Part shown: positions 32,971 to 64,000 of the stretch, piece after piece
How the letters are laid out: the number at the start of each line of letters is the position of its first letter
How positions within the stretch are numbered: the first letter of the stretch is position 1
Assembly (NCBI GenBank): GCA_024278755.1
Contig: JAJRSO010000050.1
Coordinates: 1 to 64,000, forward strand
Reading direction: 5' to 3'
Source of the DNA: Calditrichota bacterium
GTDB lineage: Bacteria; Calditrichota; Calditrichia; Calditrichales; Calditrichaceae
Length of the DNA stretch: 64,000 nt
Made by a program: the position numbers and the translations under genes
Notes under the pieces: generated by a model
What the model saw: the letters and a program-made list of their open reading frames with translations, nothing else
Told to the model about the DNA's origin: nothing
Databases searched by the model: none

Positions 32971-33149
32971 CTTAACAAGTTCGGTAAGACCGGCGGGTTT
33001 AATAAACTAAAATTTTTTCAGGATATTGGTGATGATAACAAAGCGTATCATCTGTATAGAAGAATATGTTAGCGATGAATGATTATTCCCCTGCAGTTAA
33101 TCAACTGTAATTGACAGGGCGGAGCTTTAATAGCAGAGGCTGGAGTACC

Positions 33150-33950: not shown

Positions 33951-33965
33951 AAAGAGAATGATAAG

Positions 33966-34637: not shown

Positions 34638-34656
34638 TTTAAGAGGATTAATACAT

Positions 34657-36981: not shown

Positions 36982-36997
36982 TTTGTAACTCCTTTCC

Positions 36998-37044
36998 AAG
37001 GAAGCCGTATTCCGATAAAACGGAAATTCGGCTTCCTTTTTTTT
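36998..37044 (+). terminator. Terminator after the Wzc-like gene
   Basis: AAGGAAGCCG (36998-37007) pairs with CGGCTTCCTT (37029-37038); a second small stem TTCCG/CGGAA lies inside. A run of Ts follows. It ends 17 bases past the stop, so the next gene probably has its own promoter. Confidence 0.88.
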
Positions 37045-37138
37045 AATCCGACAAATAAAACAGATATGGTGTACAACGGCCAGAATATACTATATGGTTG
37101 TTAAAACTTATTATTACAATTAAGAGACAGACCGTTTT

Positions 37139-40733: not shown

Positions 40734-42215
40734 ATGACCGATAATTTAGCTCAAAAAACGCGTACGGGAATTCTTTGGAATGCAGGCAATATTCTGTTTT
40801 CAAAATCCTTTCGTCTGATTACAAGTATTGTTTTAGCGCGTCTGCTATTTCCGGAAGATTTTGGGTTATACGGCATTGCTTTAATTCTTATCCGGCTGGC
40901 CCGTAAAATAACAAATATGGGATTTGGGGCCGTTATTGTCCAGCGAAAGGAGATAACGAAGCAGGAAATAGACACGATTTTTACCGTAAGTCTGAGTATG
41001 AATTTTATAATGGCGCTCGGGCTTTTTTTTGCTGCGCCGTACTTTGCACAATGGATAGACGAACCACGGATTGTTCCATTGGTTAATCTTATTTCTACGA
41101 CTTTTTTGATGGCTGCTTTTATTTTAACGGCGGAAAATATTTTAAAGCGAAATCTTAAGTTTAAAGCGCTCTCATTTAGCCGATCGATCAGTTCGGCCGT
41201 TCAGTATTCGGTACCTATCCTTTTAGCCATACTAAGTTTTGGTGTTTGGAGTTTAATTTTAGGCGAGGTTTTAGGTACCTTTGCTGCCATGGTCATGGCC
41301 CTGTTTTATGCCCGCTGGATGCCTAAACTCTATTTTAAATTAAAAGCGTTTAAAAATGTCTATGCGTATGGGTTTAAAGTATCGGTCGTTTCATATCTCG
41401 AATATTTTATTAACAATATAGATTACCTGCTAATTGGTAAATTTCTTGGCACGGTTCAGTTAGGATTCTACGAGCGCGCTTTTAATATAATGAATCTTAC
41501 GCGGAGACAATTGGGAAATACCATAAATGAATCGTTATTTTCGGCCTATTCAAAAATCAGCGGCGATAAAAAGCGGATTGTTTTTAATGTTAGCAAAGTT
41601 TTAAACTATGTTTCTTTAATTGCGTATCCGGTGCTTATCTGGCTGTTTTTTGCTGCTCCTTCTTTAATTGCAAATCTTTATGGCGCCAAATGGTACGAGA
41701 CAATCATTCCGCTGCAGATAATGTGCCTCTCGGGGATTATTAATACGCTTTCGATGGTGTTTAGCCCGGTTATCTTTGCGTTGGATTTAACGGCCCACCG
41801 TATTAAAATTCAGCTTATCTATCTGGTTGTATTAGCGGGTTTAATCTACCTGCTGATTCCGCTCGGAATAAAAGGCGCGGCCTTTGCCGTTGTGCTGGCT
41901 GCCGCCATAAATACCGGAATGCTGCTGTACATAATGCAGAAAAAACTTAGTTTTAATTTGACACATTTTTTTAATGCACAAAAAACACCGTTATTGTATG
42001 GCGCTGTTCAGGTAACCTTTCTGTTTTCGGCCATCACCCTCGGGAAACTATATTTTCCTTTACGCTCAATCCCCATGTTTTTTACCGTAAGTATTGTTAC
42101 AGTGGCTGCTTTTGGCATTTCACACGTTATTTTTAAAAAAGAGGATTATCAGAATCTGCTGGATGAGATACGTTCCGCCCTTCATAAGAAAACCTCTAAC
42201 GTTAAACCCACATAA
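40734..42215 (+). CDS. Polysaccharide flippase (Wzx-like, MOP superfamily)
   Basis: A 493-residue integral membrane protein with ~14 helices. It opens with GILWNAGNILFSKSFRLITS, then IVLARLLFPEDFGLYGIALI, the family signature, and keeps RWMPKLYFKLKAFKNVYAYG in the central loop. It should flip the undecaprenyl-linked repeat unit. It starts one base after the carrier protein stop. The related protein at 56939 shares the same signature. Confidence 0.92.
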   Translation: MTDNLAQKTRTGILWNAGNILFSKSFRLITSIVLARLLFPEDFGLYGIALILIRLARKITNMGFGAVIVQRKEITKQEIDTIFTVSLSMNFIMALGLFFAAPYFAQWIDEPRIVPLVNLISTTFLMAAFILTAENILKRNLKFKALSFSRSISSAVQYSVPILLAILSFGVWSLILGEVLGTFAAMVMALFYARWMPKLYFKLKAFKNVYAYGFKVSVVSYLEYFINNIDYLLIGKFLGTVQLGFYERAFNIMNLTRRQLGNTINESLFSAYSKISGDKKRIVFNVSKVLNYVSLIAYPVLIWLFFAAPSLIANLYGAKWYETIIPLQIMCLSGIINTLSMVFSPVIFALDLTAHRIKIQLIYLVVLAGLIYLLIPLGIKGAAFAVVLAAAINTGMLLYIMQKKLSFNLTHFFNAQKTPLLYGAVQVTFLFSAITLGKLYFPLRSIPMFFTVSIVTVAAFGISHVIFKKEDYQNLLDEIRSALHKKTSNVKPT

Positions 42216-42230
42216 AGATTCTCAGCAAAA

Positions 42231-43451
42231 ATGAAACACAATACAATAGATATTCCGTGGGGCGCCTGGTACGGCGACCGAAAATTACGTTTAAAATTCC
42301 CGGAATCCTGGCTGGTTACAAACTTTACGCTTCAGAGTGACCGGAAAATTTCGGACAGCCAGATTTCGGAGAAACTGAATGCACTGGATCTGCTTTTACA
42401 GAAAAAAAATCCTAAAAGCATTATTATTGCCGTAGATGATCTTACCCGGCCGGTTTTACTGGAAGAACTAATGGAGCAATTGCTTACGCGCATTACACAG
42501 TTTGGGGTTTCGGCAAAGCGTATTAAAATCATAATTGGTTTGGGTTCTCATCAGGGGTTGAATAAGGAAGCCTTATTAAAGAAACTGGGACGTTTTGCGA
42601 CGGAAAAATTTAAATGTATAAATCATCATCCCCAAGACACAGTTCCCATAGATATCATCTGGGGCAAAACTCCGGTAAAACTAAATAAGCATTATTTGCA
42701 GGCTGATTTTAAAATAGTTATCAGCGGCTTAACGCCACATAGTTTTGCGGGTTTCAGCGGCGGCGCAAAAATGCTTTTTCCAGGACTGGCCGATATGGAA
42801 ACCATCGCCAAAACTCATAAATCGGTTTTAATGGGCTTTATGGGAAAACTGGGCGATATGGCGCAAAATAAGTTTCGCGATACAATTGAGGAATTTGTAA
42901 ATAAGGCCGGGTTGGATTTTTTTATCGGAGTCGTGATTAATGCCGATCGCAGTATACGAAATATTCACTGTGGTGATTATATTTCCGCACATCGTCTTGC
43001 CGCCGAAGAGGCTCGCAACTACTATTTACTCGATTTGAGTACGATGGAAAAACCATTTGATGCAGTTATTTTAAATGCATATCCCAAAGATACGGAGCTT
43101 TTACAGGCGGAGAACGGATTCATCCCCATAAAATCGGCGAAGCGCAATCTGGTTCGTGAAGAAGGGATTGTCGTTTTAACTTCAGCTTGCAGCGAAGGGA
43201 TGGGGCATCATGGTCTGTTTGCTCCCGACGGGGTTTTATACCGCAAACCCCGTTTGCTGCGGTTTTTAAAGGAACGTCCGCTCTATTTTCATTCTGCAAA
43301 AATTACGGTAACGGAATTCCATGCCTTATATCACGAATCGTATCACTTTGTTAATGATATGCAGACGCTGATAAAGATATTGCAGCAAAAGCTACCCGAA
43401 AATGCACGGGTTGCCGTTTTTCCGTACGCCAGTTTACAATTAACAGGATAA
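42231..43451 (+). CDS. LarA-type (nickel-pincer) racemase/epimerase-like protein
   Basis: A 406-residue LarA-family protein. The motif DDLTRP is at 69-74 and GLGSH ends at H107. PHSFAGFSGGAKMLFPG carries H170 and K180, and KTH gives H196. The spacings H170-K180 (10) and K180-H196 (16) equal those of the H174, K184 and H200 that hold the nickel-pincer cofactor in lactate racemase, as I recall the structure. So the cofactor site looks intact. LarA-family enzymes epimerise alpha-hydroxy acids; here, in an EPS operon, a sugar acid or lactyl substituent is a plausible substrate, but this is inference. LarB/C/E cofactor genes are not in the window. Confidence 0.88.
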   Translation: MKHNTIDIPWGAWYGDRKLRLKFPESWLVTNFTLQSDRKISDSQISEKLNALDLLLQKKNPKSIIIAVDDLTRPVLLEELMEQLLTRITQFGVSAKRIKIIIGLGSHQGLNKEALLKKLGRFATEKFKCINHHPQDTVPIDIIWGKTPVKLNKHYLQADFKIVISGLTPHSFAGFSGGAKMLFPGLADMETIAKTHKSVLMGFMGKLGDMAQNKFRDTIEEFVNKAGLDFFIGVVINADRSIRNIHCGDYISAHRLAAEEARNYYLLDLSTMEKPFDAVILNAYPKDTELLQAENGFIPIKSAKRNLVREEGIVVLTSACSEGMGHHGLFAPDGVLYRKPRLLRFLKERPLYFHSAKITVTEFHALYHESYHFVNDMQTLIKILQQKLPENARVAVFPYASLQLTG

Positions 43452-43455
43452 CTTT

Positions 43456-44772
43456 ATGTCCGCCACTACTTTTGTATTTTTAGCCATTTATTTTACCGGT
43501 TTGTTTTTAACCTTTCGCCATCCGTATTTCGGAATTGCGACCTATATTTTTGAATGGCACAACCATCCGCCCTATATGTGGTGGGGCCGGGATTTACCTG
43601 ATCTGCGCTGGTCTCTGCTTGTTTCGGTTATCACTTTGTTGAGTTTAATTATAAACTATAAAAAACTTGCCTATCTATATAAGCCGAAATACAACCTTAT
43701 TTGGTGGTTGGTAGCAATGACCATATGGATGTATTTTATCAGCGCCTTTTTTGCGATTGATCCTAAAACAAGTTTCCGTAAAGCAGAAATATTTTACAAA
43801 TTAACGATTCAGATTTTTCTTATGATGTTCTTAATCAGGGAAATAAAACATCATAAGGTTGTGATTTGGACGCTTATGATTGGCGTAGCCAATTTCGGAC
43901 GCGTGGCCTGGCAGCGAGGTTCAAACAGATATTTGGGTGTTATCGCTCCGAATTCAACGGAGGAAAATGCGGTGTCGGCACATGTGGCGGCTGTAATTCC
44001 ATTCTTTGAACTCTATTTTTTAATCGGCTCCAAATGGGAAAAAATAGTCTCTCTGCTCTCATTGCCATTTGCGGTTAATTTAATAATTCTGGCCAATTCA
44101 CGGGCCTCTTTTTTAGCGCTTGTCGTTATTGCGGCCCTTTCGCTTTTATGGATAAAAGGAAGGCTGCGCTGGCGGGTGATTTTAGGTACCATCGGCGGTA
44201 TCATTTTAGTGCTTAGCCTGGCCAACGACCAGTTTTGGAATCGGCAGGCTACCATGGAAAACTACGAAGAAGAGGGATCGGCAATGAGCCGTTTTTATCT
44301 TTGGAATGGCGCTTTAAAAATGTGGGCCGACCATCCGATGGGATTAGGCGGGAACGGATTTCAAATGCTTGCCATTGAATATATTCCCGAGTTGGCCGAA
44401 AAGATGGAAGAGCATGGCGCGAAAACGGTGCATAATACCTTTTTATTGGTGCTGGTAGAATGGGGGGTTGTGGGGTTGCTCCTCTTCCTTGGTTTCATTA
44501 TACATGCGATGTTTATTTTATATAAAACCAGGCATGATAGAAATAAATCTCCGGGTTACCGATATTATGTGGACGCAATGGCGATACAAATGGGGCTTTT
44601 GGGAATTTTAACCGCAGGTATATTTCATAACCGTTTATATTCAGAAGTTGTTTACTGGTTCGGCGCCTTTGCTGTTGCATTAAGGAATATACAGATGACC
44701 GAAATAGAAAATATACGGATGGAACTGCAAGCGGCAGAAGAAACCATTCCGGGAGAAACATCACGTGTCTGA
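43456..44772 (+). CDS. O-antigen ligase/polymerase-like membrane protein
   Basis: A 438-residue protein with ~11 membrane helices and a large loop (residues ~235-330) carrying SRFYLWNGALKMWADHPMGLGGNGFQ-type Wzy/WaaL residues split over the loop and EHGAKTVHNTFLLVLVEWGV. Its N-terminal YIFEWHNHPPYMWWGRDLPD block resembles the exosortase-associated ligase subgroup with a DUF5935-like N-terminus. It is probably the polymerase or ligase for this EPS. It overlaps the next gene by 8 bases. Confidence 0.85.
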   Translation: MSATTFVFLAIYFTGLFLTFRHPYFGIATYIFEWHNHPPYMWWGRDLPDLRWSLLVSVITLLSLIINYKKLAYLYKPKYNLIWWLVAMTIWMYFISAFFAIDPKTSFRKAEIFYKLTIQIFLMMFLIREIKHHKVVIWTLMIGVANFGRVAWQRGSNRYLGVIAPNSTEENAVSAHVAAVIPFFELYFLIGSKWEKIVSLLSLPFAVNLIILANSRASFLALVVIAALSLLWIKGRLRWRVILGTIGGIILVLSLANDQFWNRQATMENYEEEGSAMSRFYLWNGALKMWADHPMGLGGNGFQMLAIEYIPELAEKMEEHGAKTVHNTFLLVLVEWGVVGLLLFLGFIIHAMFILYKTRHDRNKSPGYRYYVDAMAIQMGLLGILTAGIFHNRLYSEVVYWFGAFAVALRNIQMTEIENIRMELQAAEETIPGETSRV

Positions 44773-46138
44773 AAAAAAAGTATTATATCTTACCGTTAAC
44801 TTTCCGCCAAACCAATCCGTTGGAACACACCGTGTGGCGAAAATTTTAAAATATATTGATGCGCAAAAATTCCGGTTTTTTGTTTTAACTTTAAAAGAAA
44901 AATACTACAATGCCGAGGCCGGGCAAAGTAGTGGAGACGAAAAAAAAATACCGGTTTCCGTACAGGTTTTCCGAACGGACCGCTGGGACTTAACCTATGT
45001 TTTTACAGCGCTAAAACAGTTTGCACGGAGAATGGTTAAACCTTCCGTCTCTATAGAAAATGGCAGTGCCGTCAATTCGCACGAGATAAAAAGAAGAAAC
45101 AAACGAACGGCAAAGCCAAAAAAAATCATCCTGTTTATTTACCGTCTGCGTGATTTCATCTTTTCCATATTCGAGTTTCCCGACAAGTATATCGGCTGGC
45201 TTCCGAACGCGGCGCGTCAGGGAATAAAAATTGTAAAGGAAAATAAGATCGATTTTATTTTAACAACGGCTCCGCCGCATTCATTGTTTCTTATAGCCGT
45301 TATCATTAAAAAATTTACCGCGGTTAAACTGGTTTTGGATTTTCGTGATCCCTGGGCCCTGTCCCGTTGGGACAAAGGAAATTTTGTACGTTATTATTTA
45401 GAACACTGGTTGGAAAGCTTTGTCCTTAAACGAGCCGATTTAATGTTGTTTGTAACAGAAAACTTGCGTGACGAATATATAAAAAATTATTCCAAAATGC
45501 CGATAGAGAAGTTCATACTCTTTTCGAATGGCTATGATCCTGATGATTTCCCCTCGGCCCCGTTAAAAGAAACATCAAAGACCGATATAATTCGTTTTGT
45601 TCATTTGGGAACGTTGTATAAAAAACGGAATCCTATGCATCTTATTAACGCGTTAGGCGCATTAAAAGCCAGTGGGTCTTTTCAGAAAATATCTGTCCGG
45701 CTGGAATTTATCGGCAGTATTGCCACGGAATTAAACTGGCTTCCCGATAAAATTAAACAACTTGGCCTCGGGGATATGGTCTCTTTTACGCCGCCGGTTA
45801 GTTTTAAGAAGAGCATCGAAACGATGTACGCTGCCGATGTATTAGTTATTATTCAGCCCGGAACCGATTTACAGATTCCGGCTAAAATGTTTGAGTATAT
45901 GTATACGGGAAAACCGATTTTTGCAGTGGCCGAACCGGATAGCGCTTCCGACCGGGTGATTGTTGCAGGGAATCTCGGGAAGATGGCGCCGGCAGACAAT
46001 CCGCAGAAAATAGAACAGTCATTGCGCGAAATGCTGGCATATATACGTCAGGAACAAAAGCCGAAATGGGAATATATTCAATCGTATAATTACAGTAACT
46101 ATATTTCGGTATTAGAAAAATGCCTGCAAGAGGTTTGA
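44765..46138 (+). CDS. Glycosyltransferase family 4
   Basis: A 457-residue GT-B enzyme starting at GTG. It opens KVLYLTVNFPPNQSVGTHRV, the FPP...G.R pattern of GT4s with an N-terminal lid. A basic insert lies near residues 95-125. The donor domain shows FVHLGTLYKKRNPMHLINAL and PAKMFEYMYTGKPIFAVAEP. It overlaps the ligase-like gene and is followed by another GT4 with a single-base gap. Confidence 0.88.
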   Translation: MSEKKVLYLTVNFPPNQSVGTHRVAKILKYIDAQKFRFFVLTLKEKYYNAEAGQSSGDEKKIPVSVQVFRTDRWDLTYVFTALKQFARRMVKPSVSIENGSAVNSHEIKRRNKRTAKPKKIILFIYRLRDFIFSIFEFPDKYIGWLPNAARQGIKIVKENKIDFILTTAPPHSLFLIAVIIKKFTAVKLVLDFRDPWALSRWDKGNFVRYYLEHWLESFVLKRADLMLFVTENLRDEYIKNYSKMPIEKFILFSNGYDPDDFPSAPLKETSKTDIIRFVHLGTLYKKRNPMHLINALGALKASGSFQKISVRLEFIGSIATELNWLPDKIKQLGLGDMVSFTPPVSFKKSIETMYAADVLVIIQPGTDLQIPAKMFEYMYTGKPIFAVAEPDSASDRVIVAGNLGKMAPADNPQKIEQSLREMLAYIRQEQKPKWEYIQSYNYSNYISVLEKCLQEV

Positions 46139-47258: not shown

Positions 47259-48280
47259 ATGAGTCTGCTAAAAAAAATAGTTTATCAATCCATTAATCTA
47301 AGCGGAATAAACGCATGGTCGCGAAAAAGGCATGCTAACAGTATCCTCTTTTTAACGTACCATCTGGTTTTGCCTTATTCCGAAAAATTTAAACGTTTTG
47401 ATTATCGTAATGTGGTTTCTACGGATCGTTTTGATGAACAGATTCGATTTTTGAAAAAGAACTACCAGATTATTTCCCTTTCGGAAGCCCATCGCTTAAT
47501 GCGGGGGAGTGGCAAAACGGTTCGTATGTTGTAATTACGTTTGATGATGGGTTCAGAAACAATTTTACCGATGCCTATCCGGTATTAAAAAATAATAATG
47601 CTCCGGCGACGTTTTATGTGTGTACAAATTTTATTGGCCAAAATAAAATGCTTTGGACAGAAATTGTAACGGCTTTGCTGACATTTACTAACAGAAAACA
47701 GATACAATTAAACCTAAAAGAATCCGTAGACTTTTCACTGGATTCTCCGCATGATGTGGAAAAAACGTCTTTAATAATTCGCCGGTACTTAAAAAAAAGC
47801 CCTGTCGCCGAAAAGAACCGCATACTTAACGAATTACAACAGCAATGCAATGACATAACAAATCCGGTTGAACTGGATGCGGAACGGTACCGTTTTATGA
47901 ATTGGGCCGAAGTTCGGGAAATGGCAAATAACAATATGGAAATTGGTTCGCATACGGAAAATCATATATTGCTAAACATGGTTGATGCCCGAACCGCTTT
48001 TAATGAATTGAAGAATTCCAAAGAAACGTTGGAGAAAGAACTGAAAAAGACCTGTTTTCATTTTAGTTATCCCAACGGAAGTTCGGAAAACTTTTCTCAT
48101 GAAAATATTGTGCAACTCCGGCAATTAGGGTATCGTTCTGCCGCAACGCAAATAAAAGGGTTCAATAATAAAGACACGGATGTATTTCAGATAAAACGAA
48201 TTAATATCAGCAGAGATATGGATTTGGCCGTTTTTAAGGCATATACTTCCGGGAACTATAAAATATTTGCCCGGGGATAA
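47259..48280 (+). pseudogene. Polysaccharide deacetylase, frameshifted in a G run
   Basis: The first frame reads to TVRML and stops at 47532-47534; the correct continuation GEWQNGSYVVITFDDGFRNN is in the next frame. The NodB-type metal and catalytic residues are in that second part (TFDDGF, and HTENH in EIGSHTENHILLN). The break lies in five Gs (47503-47507); a sixth G would restore one ~340-residue protein. Family members de-N-acetylate polysaccharides. The N-terminal SILFLTYHLVLP block and length match exosortase-associated deacetylases. If the reading is right the gene is inactive in this sequence; if a G was lost during sequencing the gene is intact. Confidence 0.82.
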
Positions 48281-48284
48281 GGGA

Positions 48285-49316
48285 ATGATGAACCGAAAAA
48301 AAACAACCAAGTTTGATGCGGTGCCATTAGCAGATATCTTGCAGAAATATTCCGAGAGTTCAGGAATTAGTTTAACCCGTTTTGTAATTAAAAAATATAT
48401 AGATCGTCCCATATCGTTGGTGTTCAGAATAAAACTGGAATTAGAGAATGGCGACCTGCAAAATATTTATTTGAAATATTATAAACCTGTTCAGGAAGCC
48501 GCCCGGATTACCAGCGTTGTAAAACGAGATTTCGAAACGACCCGGTTTTGGTATAACCGGTTTAAAAAAAGTAAAACATATAAAGTAGTAGAGCCGCTCT
48601 ATGCCGATCCCGAAAAATCGGTTTTGATTACCCGTGAAAGCAGCGGATACAGCCTGTGGGAATACATCAATAAAAACGGCCAGTTTTTTCCTTCTGCGGA
48701 TCTGAAACGGCAGATGTTCGAAATGACCCGGCGTTCGGGCCAGTGGCTGCGTTTTTTTCAGGAAATCCCTTTTCAGGGGAAAAAAAGCCTGATTGAGCTG
48801 GAAGAAATTATCGATTATATCTCCCTGCGGCTAAACCGATTGCAGGATAATTCCAAAATAAAATTTGACGAGCAGCTAAAAAAAGATGTTCTATACTATA
48901 TTCGTAAAAACTGGAATGACGTTTCTCTGGAGGAAAGAGGAAAATCCTATGTTCATGCGGATCTTTCTTTATCAAATATATTAATTGATTCTGATACGGT
49001 TACCGTCCTAGATTTCAATAAAATAGAGATAGGTTCACCGTTTAAAGACCTGACTCGTTTTTGCCATCAGTTACAACTACTAAAAAACAAACCGACCTTT
49101 AATAAACGCTTTGTCGAAAATTTACAGATCCATTTTCTGGAAGGATACGAACAACCGGAAATTATCCGACATCCTCTGTTTAAAATTTACCTTATGATCC
49201 ATACCATTAACCATCTCGGGAAAACCGCAAGATACTGGGAGCATTCCTTTGTTGAAAATATTTACAACCGCTGGATTGTACGAAACACACTTAACCGAAT
49301 CCGGAAAATAGTTTGA
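48285..49316 (+). CDS. Aminoglycoside-phosphotransferase-like / lipopolysaccharide-kinase-like protein
   Basis: A ~343-residue kinase-fold protein. The catalytic loop is YVHADLSLSNILID (HxDxxxxN), followed by TVLDFNKIEIGSPFKDL, in which the metal-binding D is kept but the following residues differ from DFG/DWE. An N-lobe with IYLKYYKP holds the probable ATP lysine. Such enzymes phosphorylate sugars (for example in LPS core). A TTG at 48267 would extend it into the previous gene; ATG 48285/48288 after AAGGGA is preferred. The substrate is unknown. Confidence 0.72.
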   Translation: MMNRKKTTKFDAVPLADILQKYSESSGISLTRFVIKKYIDRPISLVFRIKLELENGDLQNIYLKYYKPVQEAARITSVVKRDFETTRFWYNRFKKSKTYKVVEPLYADPEKSVLITRESSGYSLWEYINKNGQFFPSADLKRQMFEMTRRSGQWLRFFQEIPFQGKKSLIELEEIIDYISLRLNRLQDNSKIKFDEQLKKDVLYYIRKNWNDVSLEERGKSYVHADLSLSNILIDSDTVTVLDFNKIEIGSPFKDLTRFCHQLQLLKNKPTFNKRFVENLQIHFLEGYEQPEIIRHPLFKIYLMIHTINHLGKTARYWEHSFVENIYNRWIVRNTLNRIRKIV

Positions 49317-54004: not shown

Positions 54005-56506
54005 ATGTTGAGAAAATATTTTACATTTATCATTGTCGGCTTTGCAAGCTTGGCTTCGGCCTTCACGCCTCAGCCCGGCAGTCCGTTGGCTTTGCATCAG
54101 CACCCGAGAATGCACATTACCCAACAGACCATTCCTATGTTTAAACAGGTTATTGCAGACCAATTCCGCTCAGAGTTTCAGGAATATGTGAATTGGGCCG
54201 CCGATGCGGACCCCACAGAAGGGGATAATATTTTATCAGCCGCCGGCCATGATCCGCTTCGCGCTCTGATTGTACATCAGGCCTTTATTGCCGCCCTTGG
54301 CGAAGTTACCGGAATCCATTATGCCGTTTCGCCCGAGACCTTTGCTCAGCGGGCCATTGATGGGTTACAAACCCGATTAGATGCAGGGGACGAATTATCG
54401 TTTGTAGCGGCTTTGGCATACGACTGGACGTTTAATTTTATGACAGAAACACAACGCCGGCAAATTGCGGAAATAATGCGTACACGCACGGTAACACACA
54501 AAGTGTATACAAATTCTATTGCAAATCCTTCTTTTCAGCCGGAGCAGATGTTTAGCAGTAAATACTACGAAGGCGCATACCCGTGGTATATGGCCCTGGC
54601 TTTTTGGGGCGACGGATTCATTGATGACGATGCGGATAAGGCCCTCGATACGTTTCATGATGTAATGATGAACTATGGCTTTTTGGACGCGCATAATTTT
54701 GTTGCCGGTGAAACGGGCGGATGGTCCGAATGGATTGGTTACGCCAGTTGGCATATGCGTACGGAGTTTTTAAACATTGATGCCTGGACAACAGCAACCG
54801 GTGAAAATGTTATCAGCGGCCAGGGACGTATCGTGGGAAACGCCGCCGCAAATTATCCAAAGCTGATGAGTTATGCGTTGGATCCGCATAAATATTTTAA
54901 CAGACATTATACATATATCCGGCAGGGCGGCGCGGAAACAACGGATTGTTCGTTTGAACACCGATCCATGCGTGAACAGATGCTTATGCTACCGCGTATT
55001 TTAGACAATGGCGGTTATGCCGATATGGCCGGATTGCTACGGCATATAATAGATGACTATGACGTCCTTTGGCCGGGATATACACATTTTTATCTGTGGG
55101 GGTTTCTTGGCATTTATCGGATGGCGGATGTAAAAACACCCGATGATTTGAATTTCCCCAAATCGATGTGGTCCAGAAATATGGGCACTTTTTTTGCCCG
55201 AACCGGTTTCAATAGTTCGGCTGATGGCGTTTTTACTTACTCGGATGGACACTTTAGATTTGAAGGACATTCCGGGCCGGATGATACACCGGCATTTACT
55301 CTGGCAAAATATGGCGGACTTGTAAACTTTAGAACGGTTGCACACCGGGGGTATGGAAATTTGGATGATTATCCCGGTGCGCGTATGTATAATGTGGTGT
55401 ATTTTGATGGTGATCCCTATGCAGACAGGCAGTCCATTGATACACCGGCAGGACTTGAGGAAATTGCAACAGGACAGGGGAACCATGATTATGGCGGTAT
55501 CGAACAGGTTACCGGCCGGGACGGTACATTTTATTTTATTCGAAGTAACCGGTCACGTAGTTTTAGTAGTGCCATTAATCATACGCGGGAATTAGTGTAT
55601 ATTCCCGGTCAGCAGCCGGAAGAGGATGCCGATGTTCTTGTTATTTATGACCGCACATCTTCTTCTGCTCAGCCGGAATGGGTGTATCACGTCCCCTGGC
55701 TTCCCGAGGTGAGCAATTATACAAGCACCGAAGATATTTCTACGGGTACCGGTACTGCCGACAGAATGGGTAATGCCTACAACGGGAACATGATCTTGAT
55801 AAAAGAACTTAATAGTCTGGGTGGCGAGCGTGACAGCGACGGGGGCGATTTGGATTATGTCGGTAGCGGTGGCGCGCACGGTGTGGCCTTCTGCCGTACT
55901 ATTTTACCTCAGCAGGCCCGTATAGAAGTGACCAGAGTGGCGGAACTGAGTTCCGAAGTAATTAAGCGCCAACATCATTTGGCGATTAAGTCGTATCGTT
56001 GGCAGGTTTCTGTTAAGCCCACACAGACAGAAGCAGCACAGCGATTTTTAAATGTCTTTCAGACGGGAGAAGAAAACAAACTGACGCATGTATCTGCCAT
56101 GCAGTTGGTTGAGGTAGGTGCAGCCATGCAGGGTGTTTTTGTCGAAGCCGAACGAAGCGGCCGTCCCAATAAACTGGTTTTGTTTAGTAAAGAAGATGCT
56201 GTAAACGAAAATACAATTACCTATTCGGTGTCGGAATCCGGCGTGACACAGCATATAATTTCGGGAGTTAAACCATACACAATATATGATATTCAGCAGA
56301 TCAGCGATTCGGGAACTACTACTTTTCAGCAGGGAACTGAGCCGGATATGCAGCTATGGGATTATAAAGGAGTGGCTGTTAATGTTCCCAGGGGAGTGTT
56401 GTTTTTCGAAACAACCGTAACCGGCAATACCACGTTTGTTATTACGCCTGCCGGCGAACAGGATGTAACGCCTCCTACAAAACCTCAGGGAATGCGTCTT
56501 AAATAA
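54005..56506 (+). CDS. Secreted heparinase II/III-like or alginate-lyase-like protein
   Basis: A signal peptide (residues ~1-18, FASLASA-F) precedes an 833-residue extracellular protein. The N-terminal part (to ~400) is helical with ALAYDWTFNFMTETQRRQIA, and the middle has GHSGPDDTPAFTLAKYGGLV and RMYNVVYFDGDPY, resembling the Heparinase_II_III catalytic sandwich. It would degrade or remodel an acidic polysaccharide outside the cell, possibly to release EPS. The last residues, DVTPPTKPQGMRLK, look like the beginning of a fibronectin type III domain, but the protein then stops; the expected C-terminal domain or sorting signal is absent. AAGGAAA precedes the ATG. Confidence 0.7.
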   Translation: MLRKYFTFIIVGFASLASAFTPQPGSPLALHQHPRMHITQQTIPMFKQVIADQFRSEFQEYVNWAADADPTEGDNILSAAGHDPLRALIVHQAFIAALGEVTGIHYAVSPETFAQRAIDGLQTRLDAGDELSFVAALAYDWTFNFMTETQRRQIAEIMRTRTVTHKVYTNSIANPSFQPEQMFSSKYYEGAYPWYMALAFWGDGFIDDDADKALDTFHDVMMNYGFLDAHNFVAGETGGWSEWIGYASWHMRTEFLNIDAWTTATGENVISGQGRIVGNAAANYPKLMSYALDPHKYFNRHYTYIRQGGAETTDCSFEHRSMREQMLMLPRILDNGGYADMAGLLRHIIDDYDVLWPGYTHFYLWGFLGIYRMADVKTPDDLNFPKSMWSRNMGTFFARTGFNSSADGVFTYSDGHFRFEGHSGPDDTPAFTLAKYGGLVNFRTVAHRGYGNLDDYPGARMYNVVYFDGDPYADRQSIDTPAGLEEIATGQGNHDYGGIEQVTGRDGTFYFIRSNRSRSFSSAINHTRELVYIPGQQPEEDADVLVIYDRTSSSAQPEWVYHVPWLPEVSNYTSTEDISTGTGTADRMGNAYNGNMILIKELNSLGGERDSDGGDLDYVGSGGAHGVAFCRTILPQQARIEVTRVAELSSEVIKRQHHLAIKSYRWQVSVKPTQTEAAQRFLNVFQTGEENKLTHVSAMQLVEVGAAMQGVFVEAERSGRPNKLVLFSKEDAVNENTITYSVSESGVTQHIISGVKPYTIYDIQQISDSGTTTFQQGTEPDMQLWDYKGVAVNVPRGVLFFETTVTGNTTFVITPAGEQDVTPPTKPQGMRLK

Positions 56507-56938: not shown

Positions 56939-58345
56939 TTGGTGAGCGAAAATAAAAAAATAATAAAAAAAACCAATCAATCGGTTGCATACCGATTCGG
57001 GTTTAAAATATTGCAACGTGGATTTGCATTGGTGTTGTCTGTTATTTTGGCCCGGTTGCTTTCTCCGGCAGAATTTGGTGTGGTTGCCATTGCCAAAATG
57101 GTAATCAACTACGCCAATAATTTTTCGAATTTTGGATTCAATACCGCTCTTATTCAGAAAGATAAAGTTGATAACGTTCAGATCAATTCGGTTTTTACCC
57201 TTAATCTGTCAATTTCACTGCTACTTGCACTTATAACAGCGGTCTTTTCTAGTCAAATAGCCGGATTTTTAAATAATGTGGAAGTTGGCCCTGTTTTACG
57301 CTGGATGTCTTTGTACTATCTTATTACCTCTTTTTATTATATTCCGGTTACCATATTAAAACGGAGTATTGACTATAAAGTACTTTCGATTATTGAGTTT
57401 ATTCAGGGAATACTTACATCGGTATTTGCCATAGTTCTTGCTTATTATAGTTTTAGTTATTGGGCTATTGTTATTCCGTCGCTGATAATGCCTTTTTTAT
57501 TTGTTTTAATCCTAATGGCTAAAACACGCTGGTTACCTAAAATTGTATTTAAACATTCGGCAATGCGGGAAATATATTCTTTCGGTTTATGGAATTTTAT
57601 TCGCACTCAGCTTAATTTAATTGTTTCGAAGGTAGACTATTTCGTGATAGCAAAATATCTGGATGTAGCCGCTTTGGGAATTTATGAGAAGGCTTTCGAA
57701 TTCACAAATCGTTCGCTAACGGGCGTAACCAAGCCGATAAATTCCATCTATTTTTCCACTTTCAGTCGCCTTAAAAAAGAGCCGGAAGCCATAAAAAATG
57801 TCTTATTTCAGGGGATTTCCATTATTGCCACGGCCAGTTATCCTATTTTATTTGGTATCATTGCTGTAGCGCCTCACTTTGTTTTCAGCCTTTTGGGTGA
57901 AAAATGGGCCTTGGCGGTTATTCCGATGCAGCTTTTGGCAATCGCGGGAGTTTTTAGAGTCCCCCTGGGAATGTTTTCGAGCGTAAATGTAGCCATCGGT
58001 CAGTATAAACTACAAACAAAATACAATATGATTATTTCGTTTGTTTTTGTAGCGCTTTGTTTTAGCGTTGTTCGATATGGTATTTATGCCGTTACGGCTT
58101 CTTTTTTAGTGTATTCGGTGCTGGGTTTTGCTCTTAGTTTTTCTCTTCTTAAAAAAACACTAAAACTCAATGTAAGTGAAGTTTTAAAATCTTTAATCTA
58201 TCCGTTGGCGGGGTCGGTAATAATGGCGGTGATAATCATAAGTCTATCCAGAACCGTTCTAACCGATATTCGTTCTATCTGGCAATTTTCTGCTTTAGTA
58301 ACAACGGGGGGGGGAGCTATGTTTTATGGATTCTTTTCTTTATAA
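56939..58345 (+). CDS. Polysaccharide flippase (Wzx-like), C-terminus shifted by a poly-G tract
   Basis: A ~468-residue flippase of the same group as 40734 (YRFGFKILQRGFALVLSVIL, then LARLLSPAEFGVVAIAKMVI). After a run of nine Gs (58306-58314) the frame ends within 11 codons as GGGAMFYGFFSL. In the next frame the sequence continues GSYVLWILFFIKKGKVTIVL and stops at 58399-58401, only 4 bases before the next gene's ATG, the usual tight spacing. Losing two or gaining one G would restore that longer protein. The start is TTG 56939 or GTG 56942; the ribosome binding site is weak. Confidence 0.88.
   Translation: MVSENKKIIKKTNQSVAYRFGFKILQRGFALVLSVILARLLSPAEFGVVAIAKMVINYANNFSNFGFNTALIQKDKVDNVQINSVFTLNLSISLLLALITAVFSSQIAGFLNNVEVGPVLRWMSLYYLITSFYYIPVTILKRSIDYKVLSIIEFIQGILTSVFAIVLAYYSFSYWAIVIPSLIMPFLFVLILMAKTRWLPKIVFKHSAMREIYSFGLWNFIRTQLNLIVSKVDYFVIAKYLDVAALGIYEKAFEFTNRSLTGVTKPINSIYFSTFSRLKKEPEAIKNVLFQGISIIATASYPILFGIIAVAPHFVFSLLGEKWALAVIPMQLLAIAGVFRVPLGMFSSVNVAIGQYKLQTKYNMIISFVFVALCFSVVRYGIYAVTASFLVYSVLGFALSFSLLKKTLKLNVSEVLKSLIYPLAGSVIMAVIIISLSRTVLTDIRSIWQFSALVTTGGGAMFYGFFSL
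58306..58314 (+). repeat. Homopolymer tract of nine Gs inside the flippase gene
   Basis: Nine consecutive Gs in a moderate-GC genome, inside the 3' end of a surface-glycan gene. Such tracts are hot spots for slipped-strand length change and also for sequencing error. The tract length decides which of two C-termini the flippase has. Confidence 0.8.
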
Positions 58346-58405: not shown

Positions 58406-59551
58406 ATGATTGTAGTACACTTAACAGTAACGCCCTGGGACGTAGGGCAGACCATGTCGCGACAAGCAATGGCGCAAGCCTTATCCAAATATTGTCTTAA
58501 TCTATATTACGTGCCTCCCAAAACGATTTCCATTAGCGAAATTCCTAAAAAACGCATTCAGGGATCAAAAAAGCAGATTAATGATAATTTAGTGCTGTTA
58601 ACACCTCCGGAAATGCAGGGGGAAATCTTACGCTATAAAAAACTAAAAGAGATTCAGTTAGGCCGTCAGATAAAATGGCTAAAAAAAAGAATAGATAAGT
58701 ATTCGACTTCTGCAAATGAGAAAATAATCCTTTATGTTTGGCACCACATATTTTTACCCTTTGTAGAACAGATAAGGCACGATGTACTGGTGTATCATAT
58801 TTATGATGATGTTTTTATGTATAAAAAGGTCAATATAAAAAAAGGTGAAGTGGAAGCAGATAAAAAACTAATTTCTTCTGCGGATATCGTTGTGGTTGTG
58901 GGAAAAGACCTTGCCGAGTGGAAAAAGGTAAAGCGGCCTTGGATTGCCTGTCCCGGCGGAGTGAATACCAATGTTTTTAAACAGGTGCCGGTAAACCTTA
59001 ATTCCCTTGGTTTTACCGTTGATGCCGGACGTAAAACGGTTGGCTATTTTGGTATGATTAACAGTAAAATTAATCTTCCCTTACTTAAAGAAATCGTAAC
59101 AAAAGGGCAGGATTTTCATTTTGTTTTTGCCGGGTTAATTGGGAATATGGATGTGCAAGATAAAGCATTATGGGCGGAAATTAATGCGGCGGAGAATGTT
59201 TCTCATCTGGGGATTAAGAAACAGAAGGAGTTAGTGGATTTATATAATATGATTGATATGGGGTTTATGCCATATCGCCATCAATCGGGTTGGTCTGTTT
59301 TTGCGATTCCATTAAAGATGTCGGAATTTTTGGCCTGCGGTAAGGCGATTGTAAGCACGCCGCTGCTTCCTTTAAAGGAATATCAAAAATACGTTCAGTT
59401 AGAAGAAAATGCCGATGGATTTATCCGGGCGTTTAATGACTTATTAAAAAACGATTCCGAAGAATTAATTCGTGCCCGAATAGCGTTTGCTAAAGAAAAC
59501 TCCTGGGAAAACAGAGCGAAACTTGTACTTTCTGAAATTAAAAAGAAATGA
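58406..59551 (+). CDS. Glycosyltransferase (GT4/GT1-like)
   Basis: A 381-residue GT-B enzyme: IVVHLTVTPWDVGQTMSRQA at the start, and a donor domain with GYFGMINSKINLPLLKEIVT and FAIPLKMSEFLACGKAIVST. The N-terminal domain with KTISISEIPKKRIQ is more divergent than in the other GT4s. The stop overlaps the next ATG (ATGA). It probably adds a sugar to the EPS repeat or to a linked surface component. Confidence 0.8.
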   Translation: MIVVHLTVTPWDVGQTMSRQAMAQALSKYCLNLYYVPPKTISISEIPKKRIQGSKKQINDNLVLLTPPEMQGEILRYKKLKEIQLGRQIKWLKKRIDKYSTSANEKIILYVWHHIFLPFVEQIRHDVLVYHIYDDVFMYKKVNIKKGEVEADKKLISSADIVVVVGKDLAEWKKVKRPWIACPGGVNTNVFKQVPVNLNSLGFTVDAGRKTVGYFGMINSKINLPLLKEIVTKGQDFHFVFAGLIGNMDVQDKALWAEINAAENVSHLGIKKQKELVDLYNMIDMGFMPYRHQSGWSVFAIPLKMSEFLACGKAIVSTPLLPLKEYQKYVQLEENADGFIRAFNDLLKNDSEELIRARIAFAKENSWENRAKLVLSEIKKK

Positions 59552-60237
59552 TCATTGAACAAAAATATAATTATGTTAAACAAGAAACAGGATTTCTTTT
59601 AGATTGGCTGGAGCATATTTTGGTTCGGGATCCGAAGTATTATTTCGGTACGATTTTTAGTATTTATTATGATACTCCCGGATTAAATTTTTATTATGAA
59701 AAAAGAAATAGCGATTATTTAAAAACTAAACTTCGTTTACGATGGTATACGGATTTAAACACTGTATCTCCGGACGAATTTATTACCTGTTTTCTGGAAC
59801 TTAAACAAAAAACAGGAACCACCAGAAAGAAGCAGAGAAAAAAACTAATACTTGCTTCAGAGAACCTTAAACTTAATCCCTTTTCCCAGAAGGAAATTTT
59901 GGATTTACCCTATATAAGCGATGATTTTAACTATCATATAAATGATATATTAGTACCCATGGCCATAATCCAGTACAAAAGATATCGGTTTGTAGATCCG
60001 TTAAGCGGTTCCCGCGTCTCTTTAGATTTTGATATTTCCTGTCCGGCTATTAACACTCAGTTTGTACATGGAAATACTCCGGTACATCTGGACTCAGGAG
60101 TGCTGGAAGTAAAAGGTTCCGGATTGCATTTGCCAAAACTATTGAATCCAATTGAATCATATTTAAAAAAAGAGGCATTTTCCAAATACGCCCAGTGCCT
60201 TGAATACGTGGATAATTCTGTTACAAGGAGAGTATAA
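59548..60237 (+). CDS. VTC-domain (CYTH-fold) protein
   Basis: A 229-residue protein of the VTC family, whose eukaryotic members polymerise polyphosphate. The N-terminal EQKYNYVKQETGFLLDWLEH, FGTIFSIYYDTPGLNFYYEK, KTKLRLRWYTDLN and ECLELKQKTGT-like segments give the basic, tunnel-lining residues of the CYTH fold (K/R-rich strands, acidic LELK and VLEVKG ends). It starts within the stop of the glycosyltransferase gene and ends just ahead of a DUF4956 gene, the usual bacterial pairing. Whether it makes polyphosphate here is unproven. Confidence 0.85.
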   Translation: MIIEQKYNYVKQETGFLLDWLEHILVRDPKYYFGTIFSIYYDTPGLNFYYEKRNSDYLKTKLRLRWYTDLNTVSPDEFITCFLELKQKTGTTRKKQRKKLILASENLKLNPFSQKEILDLPYISDDFNYHINDILVPMAIIQYKRYRFVDPLSGSRVSLDFDISCPAINTQFVHGNTPVHLDSGVLEVKGSGLHLPKLLNPIESYLKKEAFSKYAQCLEYVDNSVTRRV

Positions 60238-60238
60238 T

Positions 60239-60940
60239 TTGAAAGACATCTTAAGTAAAATAGGAAAGTTAGTACAGGACCCGACGGTTGCGGTGGATGT
60301 TACCGGCTTTATTTTTGCCCTGCTTATATCTGTTGTCGTCGGACTTATTGTTTCGATATTATATCAGGTATTTTATGAAAACCGGGCTACAGGATCCCAA
60401 ATACACCGTAGTTTTATTTTAATAAGTCCTTCCATTACAGCATTGTTTATTGCCATACAATTTTCATTGCCTCTGTCATTAGGTCTCCTTGGGGCGTTGT
60501 CTTTTATTCGTTTCAGAACACCCATAAAAGAACCGGAAGAAATTGGCTTTATGATGCTTTTAATAGCGGGGTCGGTTGTTTGTGCTACATTTCAGTTTCT
60601 ATTACTCTTTGTACTTCTGGGGCTGGCAGTGGTCGTTTTGATGCTTCAAAAATATATGCCGCTTTTGTTTAAGGGAAAACGAAAAGACGGCATTCTGCTA
60701 ATCACTCTTAAGGACGGGGTTTCGGCTAAAGAAAAACAAAGTATTTTACAATATCTGGAATCAAAACTAAACAATGTCCTGCTTCAAAGCGTTTCTTTTA
60801 CAGAAAACCTTACGACTATGTATTACTCGTTTGCCGCGGTTGAGAATAACGATTTGGCGACTTTGCACAGCTCACTTTCTGAAATTGCTTCCATTCAGAA
60901 ATTAAATATTATTTATAATCGTGACGGATTATTGTTTTAA
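60239..60940 (+). CDS. DUF4956 membrane protein
   Basis: A ~233-residue protein with about four membrane helices (VTGFIFALLISVVVGLIVSI, then SITALFIAIQFSLPLSLGLL, then IGFMMLLIAGSVVCATFQFL) and a soluble C-terminal domain. The GALSFIRFRTPIKEPEEIGF motif is the family signature. I start at TTG 60239, which follows AAGGAG (60225-60230) after 8 bases and begins one base past the VTC gene. The function is unknown; the family co-occurs with VTC and CotH proteins. Confidence 0.85.
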   Translation: MKDILSKIGKLVQDPTVAVDVTGFIFALLISVVVGLIVSILYQVFYENRATGSQIHRSFILISPSITALFIAIQFSLPLSLGLLGALSFIRFRTPIKEPEEIGFMMLLIAGSVVCATFQFLLLFVLLGLAVVVLMLQKYMPLLFKGKRKDGILLITLKDGVSAKEKQSILQYLESKLNNVLLQSVSFTENLTTMYYSFAAVENNDLATLHSSLSEIASIQKLNIIYNRDGLLF

Positions 60941-60958
60941 GGTCGGGCATGTGCAAAA

Positions 60959-62653
60959 ATGCAAAAAATCATAAATCTGATACTATCTTTTACGCTTCTG
61001 TTTATGCTCTATATCCTTTTCATTTCTTCTTCGTGGCATCAACAGATAATTTCGCAGCAGTGGAGTTTAAACCAACTACACTTTTTGGAATTCCGCAAAA
61101 AATTAAAAGCACGTGTAGCGCCCAATATCGATAAACGGTTTAAGTTTCATGTGAATGAATCCTTTTCGGGGAAACCGTATGCGGATAAGAAGGCGGGATT
61201 TTATACCGATTCGCTGACCGTACGGTTGTTTAGTGACGAACCAAACGCTCAAATATTTTATACCGTCGATGGCAGTATTCCTACAAAAAACGCCCTAAGA
61301 TACATTAAACCCATTAAGATAAATAAAAATAAGGTTCTGCGTTTTCGCTCTTTTTGCTTAAATAAATTTCCAAGTGAAGTGGTTACAAAAACGTATCTTG
61401 TAAACGTTGCGTATACTTTACCTATCCTGTCACTCGTTACCGATCCGGTAAATTTATGGAATAAATATTCGGGAATTTATAAAAATCCAAAAAAACACGG
61501 ACGAAAATGGGAACGGGCCGCACATCTGGAAACATTTAGGAAAGATGGCACGTTAGAGACACAGTTTCCATTACATATCCGCATTCATGGGGGATATTCC
61601 CGCAGTAAACCAAAAAAATCATTCCGGCTTATTTATGATGTTTCGGAAGTAGAAGGAACAGATAAAAAAAATATATTTAAAAAAAGTAAAAAGCATTCGG
61701 AGCGCCAGCTCGTTTTAAGAGCCGGAGGCAGTAATGAAGATTTTCGTCTGCGCGATGAAGTTTTTCAGACATTATACGCCGAAGTCAGCAATCTGCATTC
61801 TCCTTTCGAGCTCTGTGTCCTCTATTTAAACGGAGCGTTTTGGGGAATTTATAATATCCGTAAACGCATCGATCAACGTTATATCCGTGAAATGGAAGGG
61901 CCGGGAAATTATAATTTAATCTATGCTTTTTTTAAAGCGGTGGATGGTGATACAAAATTTTTAGACAGCACGTTTCATTTTCTAAAAACCCACGATCTCA
62001 CTCTGGACGAAAACTTTAAACAGGCACAGGAATTTATCGATACAGATAATATGATGGATTTTTGGCTGTTTAATATCTATTTCGGGAACATAGATTGGCC
62101 TCATAATAATGTTTATATGTTCCGGGACTCAGGGCCCTGGCGTTATATTTCGTGGGATGCGGATGCTACATTTGATATTAGCGACGGATTTGGATTACAA
62201 CACAATACTTTAGCGTGGGCATTGCGGGATACGTTACGTCATGATTTACGACGCCCGGGAAGAACAGATAATAGCCGGATGCAGTTATCCACATTTATCT
62301 TTAGTTCGCTGATAAAAAATCAGTCTTTCAGAGAAAAGTTTATAACTCGTTTTTTAGAATTGGTGCATAATAATTTTCAACCGCAACGGATCGAAGTAAT
62401 TACGGATAGTTTAATAAACCTGAGTAAAACGGCGCATAAAGATGATTTGGAGCGCTGGGGACACAGCGACAATGCGTATTGGCATAATGTGGAAATGATC
62501 AAAAATTTTGCTTATAAAAGATCTCAGATTATTTCGGAGTATTTTGAAGAAGAATTCCATATTGATCTTGATGATTTTGCGTTCCGGAAGCGTTCAAAAT
62601 ATAATGAACCATTCTGTTTGAAAAATAGCGACAAATATATTAATAACAGATGA
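60959..62653 (+). CDS. CotH-like kinase family protein with N-terminal chitobiase-C-type domain
   Basis: A 564-residue protein with an N-terminal membrane anchor or signal (IINLILSFTLLFMLYILFIS). A beta-sandwich follows around residues 80-150 (IFYTVDGSIPTKNALRYIKP, like the chitobiase/FN3-type domain). The CotH kinase-like domain follows: LRAGGSNEDFRLRDEVFQTL, YLNGAFWGIYNIRKRIDQRY, and WPHNNVYMFRDSGPWRYISW with DADATFDISDGF. CotH proteins can phosphorylate proteins on the cell surface or in spore coats. Acting outside the cytoplasm fits the anchor. It is downstream of the VTC/DUF4956 pair. Confidence 0.87.
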   Translation: MQKIINLILSFTLLFMLYILFISSSWHQQIISQQWSLNQLHFLEFRKKLKARVAPNIDKRFKFHVNESFSGKPYADKKAGFYTDSLTVRLFSDEPNAQIFYTVDGSIPTKNALRYIKPIKINKNKVLRFRSFCLNKFPSEVVTKTYLVNVAYTLPILSLVTDPVNLWNKYSGIYKNPKKHGRKWERAAHLETFRKDGTLETQFPLHIRIHGGYSRSKPKKSFRLIYDVSEVEGTDKKNIFKKSKKHSERQLVLRAGGSNEDFRLRDEVFQTLYAEVSNLHSPFELCVLYLNGAFWGIYNIRKRIDQRYIREMEGPGNYNLIYAFFKAVDGDTKFLDSTFHFLKTHDLTLDENFKQAQEFIDTDNMMDFWLFNIYFGNIDWPHNNVYMFRDSGPWRYISWDADATFDISDGFGLQHNTLAWALRDTLRHDLRRPGRTDNSRMQLSTFIFSSLIKNQSFREKFITRFLELVHNNFQPQRIEVITDSLINLSKTAHKDDLERWGHSDNAYWHNVEMIKNFAYKRSQIISEYFEEEFHIDLDDFAFRKRSKYNEPFCLKNSDKYINNR

Positions 62654-62766: not shown

Positions 62767-64000
62767 ATGTGTGGAATCGCCGGTTTTATATCTCAAAAAA
62801 ATAATTTAAAAACCCATAAAACCCGTCTGGAGCAGATGATAGGATCATTATATCATCGCGGGCCGGATGAATGTGGTTTTTTGTTTGATAAACGCTGTGC
62901 CATGGGCATGTCCCGATTGAGTATTATCGATTTAAACAGCGGCAGTCAGCCTATTCATAATGAAGATAAATCGCTGTGGATTGTATTTAACGGCGAAATT
63001 TTTAACTATCCCGAACTGGGAGAAACGTTAAAAAACAAAGGCCACCGCTTTTACACCTCCTCCGACACAGAAGTGATTTTGCATTGCTATGAAGAGTACG
63101 GCCTGGATTTTGTGCAGCATCTTAACGGTCAGTTTGCCATTGCCATCTGGGATAGAAAAAAACAACAACTGATTTTAGCGCGTGACCGTGTGGGCATACG
63201 GCCTTTGTTTTATGCGCAGATAAACGATAAGCTTATTTTTGCTTCAGAAATGAAAGCGATTTTTGCAGAAGGAACGGTACAACCGCATATAACGGAAACA
63301 GGGCTGGCCGATATATTTACCTTTTGGGTCAATATTCCACCACAAACAGTTTTTAAAGATATAAACGAATTACCGCCCGGTCATCTTATGATTTGCAATG
63401 GTAAACAAATGCACATTAAAAAATACTGGGCGTATTCTTTTCCACAAAACGGAAACTTTACCGATAAATCTGAAAAAGAATTACAACAGGAATTGCAGGA
63501 TTTGCTATACGATGCGGTGACCATTCGTTTGCGTGCCGATGTGCCGGTCGCCTCCTATTTAAGCGGCGGGATTGATTCGTCCATTATTTCGACACTTGTT
63601 AAAAATTATCATAACAATGATTTAATCACATTTTCCGTTACTTTTAAAGACAAACATTTCGACGAGCGTAGTTTTCAGGAACAGATGGCAAAAAAGATAG
63701 GTACGCGCCACCATTCTATCGAAGTGGATGATAAAAAAATTGCCAATGATTTCAGCGATGTCATTTGGTTTTCGGAAAAACCGCTTATGCGAACGGCGCC
63801 CTCGCCGCTTTTCGCGCTATCGTCATTAGTAAGGCAAAATAATATTAAGGTTGTCCTTACCGGCGAGGGCGCCGATGAAATGTTTGGCGGCTATAATATT
63901 TTCCGGGAAGATAAGGTACGCCGCTTTTGGGCGCGGGAGCCACAATCCCGGTGGCGCCCCAAGCTTTTTTCCCGTTTATATGCCTATATATTAAAATCCG
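62767..64000 (+). CDS. asnB: Asparagine synthetase (glutamine-hydrolysing), partial
   Basis: The gene runs off the right edge after ~411 codons. Cys2 of MCGIAGFI is the glutaminase nucleophile, and HRGPDECGF and NGEIFNYPELGETL complete the class II amidotransferase domain (residues 1-190). The synthetase domain has the PP-motif SYLSGGIDSSIIST near residue 265 and LTGEGADEMFGGYN. Such AsnB-like enzymes in EPS loci usually amidate uronic acids or other carboxylates. It is likely the next modification gene of the EPS locus. Confidence 0.93.
   Translation, partial: MCGIAGFISQKNNLKTHKTRLEQMIGSLYHRGPDECGFLFDKRCAMGMSRLSIIDLNSGSQPIHNEDKSLWIVFNGEIFNYPELGETLKNKGHRFYTSSDTEVILHCYEEYGLDFVQHLNGQFAIAIWDRKKQQLILARDRVGIRPLFYAQINDKLIFASEMKAIFAEGTVQPHITETGLADIFTFWVNIPPQTVFKDINELPPGHLMICNGKQMHIKKYWAYSFPQNGNFTDKSEKELQQELQDLLYDAVTIRLRADVPVASYLSGGIDSSIISTLVKNYHNNDLITFSVTFKDKHFDERSFQEQMAKKIGTRHHSIEVDDKKIANDFSDVIWFSEKPLMRTAPSPLFALSSLVRQNNIKVVLTGEGADEMFGGYNIFREDKVRRFWAREPQSRWRPKLFSRLYAYILKS

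Follow-up and report, generated by a model that had tools for sequence, protein, structure and literature searches.

A row of three genes, coding for a polyphosphate polymerase-like VTC protein, a DUF4956 membrane protein and a CotH-like kinase, is known as an accessory set in the Pel operons of Gram-positive bacteria (PMC7112168). In Streptococcus intermedius such a trio is formed by SIR_1592-1594 and was reported to be absent outside Pel; deletion of the DUF4956 gene led there to more Pel and less aggregation, deletion of the CotH gene led to less Pel, and the DUF4956 member SIR_1592 has already been described as MgtC-like with an ACT domain (PMC12345266). NELoc-2 of Clostridium perfringens harbors two VTC genes, each next to a membrane protein of 222-226 aa, together with a CotH gene (PMC2879425), and from its size and place this membrane protein is probably DUF4956. 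The yeast VTC complex combines the tunnel domain of Vtc4 with the VTC membrane domain, and by it polyphosphate is made and moved into the vacuole (PMC4641920). Here we describe a VTC-DUF4956-CotH module on contig JAJRSO010000050.1 of a Calditrichota bacterium (assembly GCA_024278755.1), of which the first 64,000 nucleotides were analyzed (the window), and we compare it with related loci in several phyla. An original prediction, made from the sequence of the window, suggested a phosphate- or polyphosphate-dependent modification of the glycan or its carrier proteins, with a chemistry that it took to be undescribed. It is partly supported, but the coupling itself is not new, as the trio had been published in Pel operons in 2020 and 2025 (PMC7112168, PMC12345266).

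The genes of the module lie on the forward strand with hardly any space between them. According to the open reading frames (ORFs), a gene for a GT4-type glycosyltransferase (58406-59551; PF00534/PF13692) shares four nucleotides, ATGA, with the VTC gene (59548-60237), which is followed after 1 nt by the DUF4956 gene (60239-60940) and after a further gap of 18 nt by the CotH gene (60959-62653). The likely start of DUF4956 is the TTG at 60239, one base past the VTC stop and with AAGGAG ahead of it, while the mechanically called ORF opens at 60200. The minimal gaps and the overlap with the upstream glycosyltransferase, both of which had been predicted, are thus seen in the gene coordinates.

The pairing of the first two genes of the trio reaches far beyond this genome. 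The survey comprised 80 loci drawn from named genomes with a VTC profile match, a Bacillota sample and a sample of the phylum of Desulfomicrobium; 99 loci with enough flank were counted, nine of them from the phylum of the window. DUF4956 is found within three genes of VTC in 97 of these 99 loci, which come from several phyla, and chance adjacency is rejected by this number. Among 40 genomes of the Calditrichota, each of the 12 VTC genes shares its cluster with a DUF4956 gene, and 12 of the 15 DUF4956 matches above the cut-off accompany VTC. Matches to all three families also occur in the genome of Corynebacterium glutamicum. VTC and DUF4956 are a near-obligate pair across phyla, which we count as new.

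The third partner of this pair is of two kinds. In most loci outside the Bacillota, a membrane-fusion-type protein of 350 aa is encoded just ahead of VTC; its profile matches MacA, EmrA and AcrA, and Pfam HlyD_3 recognizes individual members no more than weakly, with E <= 0.1 for 11 of 21. Of the 57 non-Bacillota loci with enough flank, 45 encode this protein, and all Bacillota loci surveyed lack it, as would be expected if a product has to cross a two-membrane envelope. CotH, the other partner, lies within 7 kb in 11 of the 12 non-Bacillota loci that lack the membrane-fusion protein vs 12 of the 45 that have it. A Fisher test gives p 6.7e-5 for this distribution, a value that is not independent evidence, because the loci are related and a tree of VTC and DUF4956, in which the membrane-fusion trait changes only about five times, permits only three to five independent comparisons, for which a sign test is not significant. 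The alternation looks like a partner exchange that is not significant once relatedness is taken into account. In the same tree the window belongs to a small clade on a long branch (support 99), together with a groundwater metagenome-assembled genome (MAG) of the Chlamydiota and two Desulfomicrobium MAGs, all of them with CotH. One may ask whether CotH is merely a passenger, that is, a functionally separate surface protein beside VTC-DUF4956 as the real unit. CotH genes are indeed abundant, a single genome of the phylum having as many as 13 matches, and most of them lie away from VTC. But CotH is at most four genes from VTC in 39 of the 99 loci, many phyla show direct adjacency, and there is the alternation with the membrane-fusion protein, so that we think this explanation is very unlikely. 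The compact row of MacA/EmrA-like protein, VTC and DUF4956 occurs in Bacteroidota, Ignavibacteriota, KSB1, Eiseniibacteriota and others (for example L015:6948-9441), and it looks like a polyphosphate export system.

CotH-type modules stand beside polysaccharide genes in Calditrichota, Chlamydiota, Bipolaricaulota and Bacillota, which contradicts the published view of Pel as the only setting of the trio. The module of genome G028 is accompanied by heptose-type sugar genes and a GT2 glycosyltransferase, that of G032 by a GDP-mannose-dehydratase-like gene and GT2, that of the Chlamydiota (L024) by GT4, a DegT aminotransferase and an epimerase, that of a Bacillota locus (L123) by a chitin-synthase-like GT2, and two Bipolaricaulota loci hold a GT2 synthase and GH113, one of them also a UDP-GlcNAc 2-epimerase. 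At L148:2-11322 (G033:C208) the genes for DUF4956, CotH and a phosphoesterase directly follow those for an undecaprenyl-phosphate (UndP) transferase, Wzc and FemAB, and VTC is not seen before the contig end; the polysaccharide core of this locus (UndP-transferase, STAS, export, Wzc, FemAB) is the same as that of the window, while its DUF4956-CotH-phosphoesterase row is of another lineage. For the membrane-fusion-type loci, GT2 or GT4 within 7 kb was detected in 2 of 45; all glycosyltransferase counts are lower bounds because home-made profiles miss members. The predicted association with exopolysaccharide genes therefore recurs in several phyla in this gene-neighborhood survey, but it does not extend to the closest relatives of the module, in Desulfomicrobium, which have no recognizable polysaccharide locus and adjoin MotA/ExbB- and OmpA-like genes.

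The VTC protein of the window (229 aa) is predicted to be soluble and to have a polyphosphate-polymerase-like tunnel of the triphosphate tunnel metalloenzyme (TTM)/CYTH fold. It matches PF09359 with 75.9 bits at a cut-off of 23 (4.5e-21), and the best solved relative of the family profile is yeast Vtc4 (3g3q, 1e-17). In the family-profile alignment K6, R63, R65, K86 and K95 fall on K200, R264, R266, K281 and K294 of Vtc4, and R145, R156, E187 and K189 on R361, R373, E426 and K428; K213 presumably corresponds to K458, judged by motif. The basic tunnel residues and the metal glutamate of Vtc4 are hence kept. Two N-terminal positions differ, with E4 in place of T198 and I2 in place of R196, which calls for caution, as the protein is a mix of Vtc4-like and general TTM features. 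As no hydrophobic segment is found in its 229 residues, it has no membrane domain like that of yeast Vtc4, and we therefore file it as a VTC-domain protein and not as a member of a yeast-type VTC complex. E4 and I2 could fit a triphosphatase or another TTM enzyme, in a module that trims or senses triphosphates, since E4 belongs to the phosphatase-type ExExK motif and hydrolases are common among TTM proteins (PMC4641920). This is nonetheless an improbable alternative, given the Pfam VTC match and given that K189 and K95, at the positions of Vtc4 K428 and K294, are still basic, whereas in the phosphatase AtTTM3 glutamates replace the basic exit residues of Vtc4 (PMC4641920).

In the genome of the window, rated 95.8% complete, a family search gave no match to PPK1 (PF02503) or PPK2 (PF03976), which leaves VTC as the only polyphosphate synthase candidate detected there. 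That VTC simply takes the place of PPK is rejected as a general rule, as PPK1 is also present in 8 of the 11 VTC genomes of the phylum. In another Calditrichota genome (L146:1167-6657, G032:C87), a metallophosphoesterase, a longer DUF4956-like protein of 364 aa that is one of the matches apart from VTC, a secreted protein of 300 aa and PPK1 are encoded in a row, which ties DUF4956 to polyphosphate independently.

The CotH-kinase-like protein (564 aa) matches PF08757 with 126.5 bits at a cut-off of 23.8 (2.1e-36) and contains in addition a chitobiase/Fn3-like region (Fn3_assoc/CHB_HEX), and its family profile matches the structure of spore coat CotH (5jd9, 4e-37). D379 and D400 stand at the positions of the catalytic D228 and D251, an assignment that relies on the 23-residue spacing in 5jd9; D228Q and D251A inactivate Bacillus subtilis CotH (PMC7821199). 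Loss of active-site residues in VTC or CotH is thus rejected, and neither of the two outcomes named as speaking against the original prediction, lost catalytic residues of the VTC tunnel or a lack of recurrent association, was found, as the tunnel and CotH residues are intact and the CotH version recurs beside polysaccharide genes. The only hydrophobic segment of CotH is N-terminal (residues 1-27), which is consistent with an N-in, C-out orientation and agrees with the outward-facing anchor that had been proposed. In several Bacillota loci (L126:4393-7032, L136:5096-6973, L125:7709-9380, L121 and L131), the genes just upstream of VTC-DUF4956-CotH code for RsgI-like anti-sigma and lipoprotein-like proteins that carry (S/T)DYD or TDYGPNNDGV repeats in long extracellular stretches, in L126 together with a sigma-70 region 2 protein. 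These repeat proteins are candidate CotH acceptors; no comparable acidic S/T/Y-repeat protein was found in the locus of the window.

DUF4956 (233 aa; PF16316, 3.5e-13) is multi-spanning according to its hydrophobicity. Compared with the MgtC profile by hhalign, it reaches a probability of 95.3% (E 2.4e-8) over 117 columns of the membrane region, and PF02308 (MgtC) matches one DUF4956 gene weakly, at 7e-4 and under its cut-off. An AlphaFold2 (AF2) model, a monomer computed from 52 sequences after a weaker one from 10, has a predicted local distance difference test (pLDDT) score of 84.7 and a predicted template modeling (pTM) score of 0.73, and its membrane part is helical, while the C-terminal domain has a ferredoxin-like fold, for which Foldseek finds ferredoxin-like and ACT domains, including the C-terminus of Mycobacterium tuberculosis MgtC (2lqj). 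Plasmid relatives of the window DUF4956 protein were not matched. Tubulin/FtsZ, the product name given to similar-sized VTC neighbors (PMC2879425), is rejected for DUF4956, which is multi-spanning and MgtC-like. The MgtC-like plus ACT architecture lends itself to a regulatory explanation, in which VTC and the ACT-like domain would adjust polysaccharide synthesis to a phosphate or nucleotide status that they sense or set, CotH would phosphorylate a synthase or export protein, and polyphosphate would be at most a local signal. The S. intermedius phenotypes fit this as well, and a regulation by phosphorylation has been proposed (PMC7112168). Because of the ACT-like domain and these phenotypes it is a serious rival, but the recurrent membrane-fusion partner points to transport and not to sensing, the module also occurs outside polysaccharide loci, and CotH points out of the cell and not toward the enzymes of the cytosol; on balance we regard it as unlikely.

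We rather think of a polyphosphate-handling unit that is bound to the membrane and placed within a polysaccharide locus, as suggested by the VTC-DUF4956 pairing, the intact residues and the membrane-fusion partner. In this mechanism, the soluble tunnel domain of VTC would use ATP to build polyphosphate on the cytosolic side of the membrane, as its homology and intact residues suggest. DUF4956, as the obligatory partner indicated by the near-invariable pairing, would anchor VTC and either pass the chain across the membrane or gate the activity, and the extracytoplasmic kinase-fold domain of CotH would act on the emerging matrix, where it would either bind the chain or phosphorylate the glycan or a protein associated with it. 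The outcome may be a phosphorylated or polyphosphate-loaded matrix. The change in Pel level and aggregation upon deletion of DUF4956 or CotH in S. intermedius also supports this scheme, to which we assign an even chance. As ATP is scarce outside the cytoplasm, it would be attractive for CotH to take its phosphate from exported polyphosphate, though polyphosphate as the donor is a speculation. The full combination, with polymerase, MgtC-like translocon and MacA-like adaptor as a widespread polyphosphate synthesis and export machine and a CotH version that uses the exported polyphosphate to phosphorylate matrix polysaccharides or proteins, appears rather improbable to us. For the row with the membrane-fusion protein and for polyphosphate as CotH donor, no report was found in the literature, of which few subscription journals and preprints were covered.

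Several observations speak against the polyphosphate-handling scheme. In bacterial VTC proteins the ExExK motif known from phosphatases still has its second glutamate (E4), which allows for hydrolysis, and the ACT-like domain of DUF4956 suggests regulation. MgtC relatives are not known to act as polyphosphate channels, and structure searches with the AF2 model gave no solved relative for the transmembrane region of DUF4956. The module of the window lacks a neighboring membrane-fusion protein, the alternation of the two partners rests on few independent changes in the tree, and no polysaccharide gene was found among the flanking ORFs scanned in Desulfomicrobium, where the closest sequence relatives of the module occur. 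Also the loss of the VTC gene alone in S. intermedius has no reported phenotype (PMC12345266).

If VTC-DUF4956 exports polyphosphate, this would explain how polyphosphate could be placed outside bacterial cells and would give DUF4956 a function. It would moreover link phosphate chemistry to the biofilm matrix in many phyla and provide a possible source of phosphate donors for an extracytoplasmic kinase such as CotH. The survey supplies testable partners for this, as the pair is nearly invariable and its third partner is either the membrane-fusion protein or CotH. New here are the pairing across phyla, the membrane-fusion partner, the CotH-type modules outside Pel and the MgtC-like nature of DUF4956 with its ACT-like tail, described before for one member.

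The last part of the window is a polysaccharide locus with many glycosyltransferases, which confirms the predicted setting of the trio and is of the Wzx/Wzy type. Its core (32008-38170, on the forward strand like the genes at 40734-46138, 56939-58345 and 62767-64000) encodes an undecaprenyl-phosphate glycosyl-phosphate transferase, a STAS protein, a Poly_export lipoprotein, a Wzc-like kinase and FemAB (TIGR03025, TIGR01007, TIGR03019, PF01740, PF02563), followed at 40734-46138 by a Wzx-type flippase, a Lar_N protein, a Wzy_C polymerase/ligase and a GT4, all assigned by family matches. A second Wzx-type flippase (56939-58345; PF13440, 5.7e-73) joins the first one (40734-42215), and this perhaps indicates two polymers or a fused locus. 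The trio lies between the GT4 gene and a gene for an asparagine-synthase-like amidotransferase (62767-64000; TIGR01536, 7e-131), which runs beyond the window and codes for 658 aa in the contig, where the locus goes on with more glycosyltransferases as well as a deacetylase and an epimerase. The locus also encodes a Lactate-racemase-N/DUF362-like protein (42231-43451), a secreted-looking protein of 833 aa without Pfam match (54005-56506) and an APH-type phosphotransferase (48267-49316), whose phosphorylation target could be a sugar or a lipid. Among the roughly 35 proteins scanned in the stretch from 30 to 77 kb, no Pel family was matched, and Wzx, Wzy_C, Wzc and the UndP-transferase are found instead.

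Compared with the described systems, NELoc-2 of C. perfringens, known as an association locus only, shares VTC, the 222-226 aa membrane protein, CotH and a chitin-synthase-like glycosyltransferase (PMC2879425). The yeast VTC complex shares the tunnel domain and the basic residues, but the window VTC has neither an SPX domain nor a fused VTC membrane domain, and its proposed membrane part is a separate, unrelated MgtC-like protein. MgtC/SapB proteins resemble DUF4956 in the membrane region and in the ACT-like C-terminal domain, a likeness seen here in sequence and model, whereas PF16316 is a separate family that is tied to VTC. With the spore-coat kinase CotH of B. subtilis and B. cereus (5jd9), the window protein has the fold family and the catalytic aspartates in common, but it is membrane-anchored and extracytoplasmic and stands outside a spore-coat setting. 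The closest counterpart is the Gram-positive Pel module, which has the same three families in a row by polysaccharide genes, an MgtC-like transmembrane part plus ACT in its DUF4956 member and a secreted CotH, while the trio of the window comes from another phylum and from a locus of the Wzx/Wzy type, where no adjacent pelDEADAFG genes were found among the proteins scanned.

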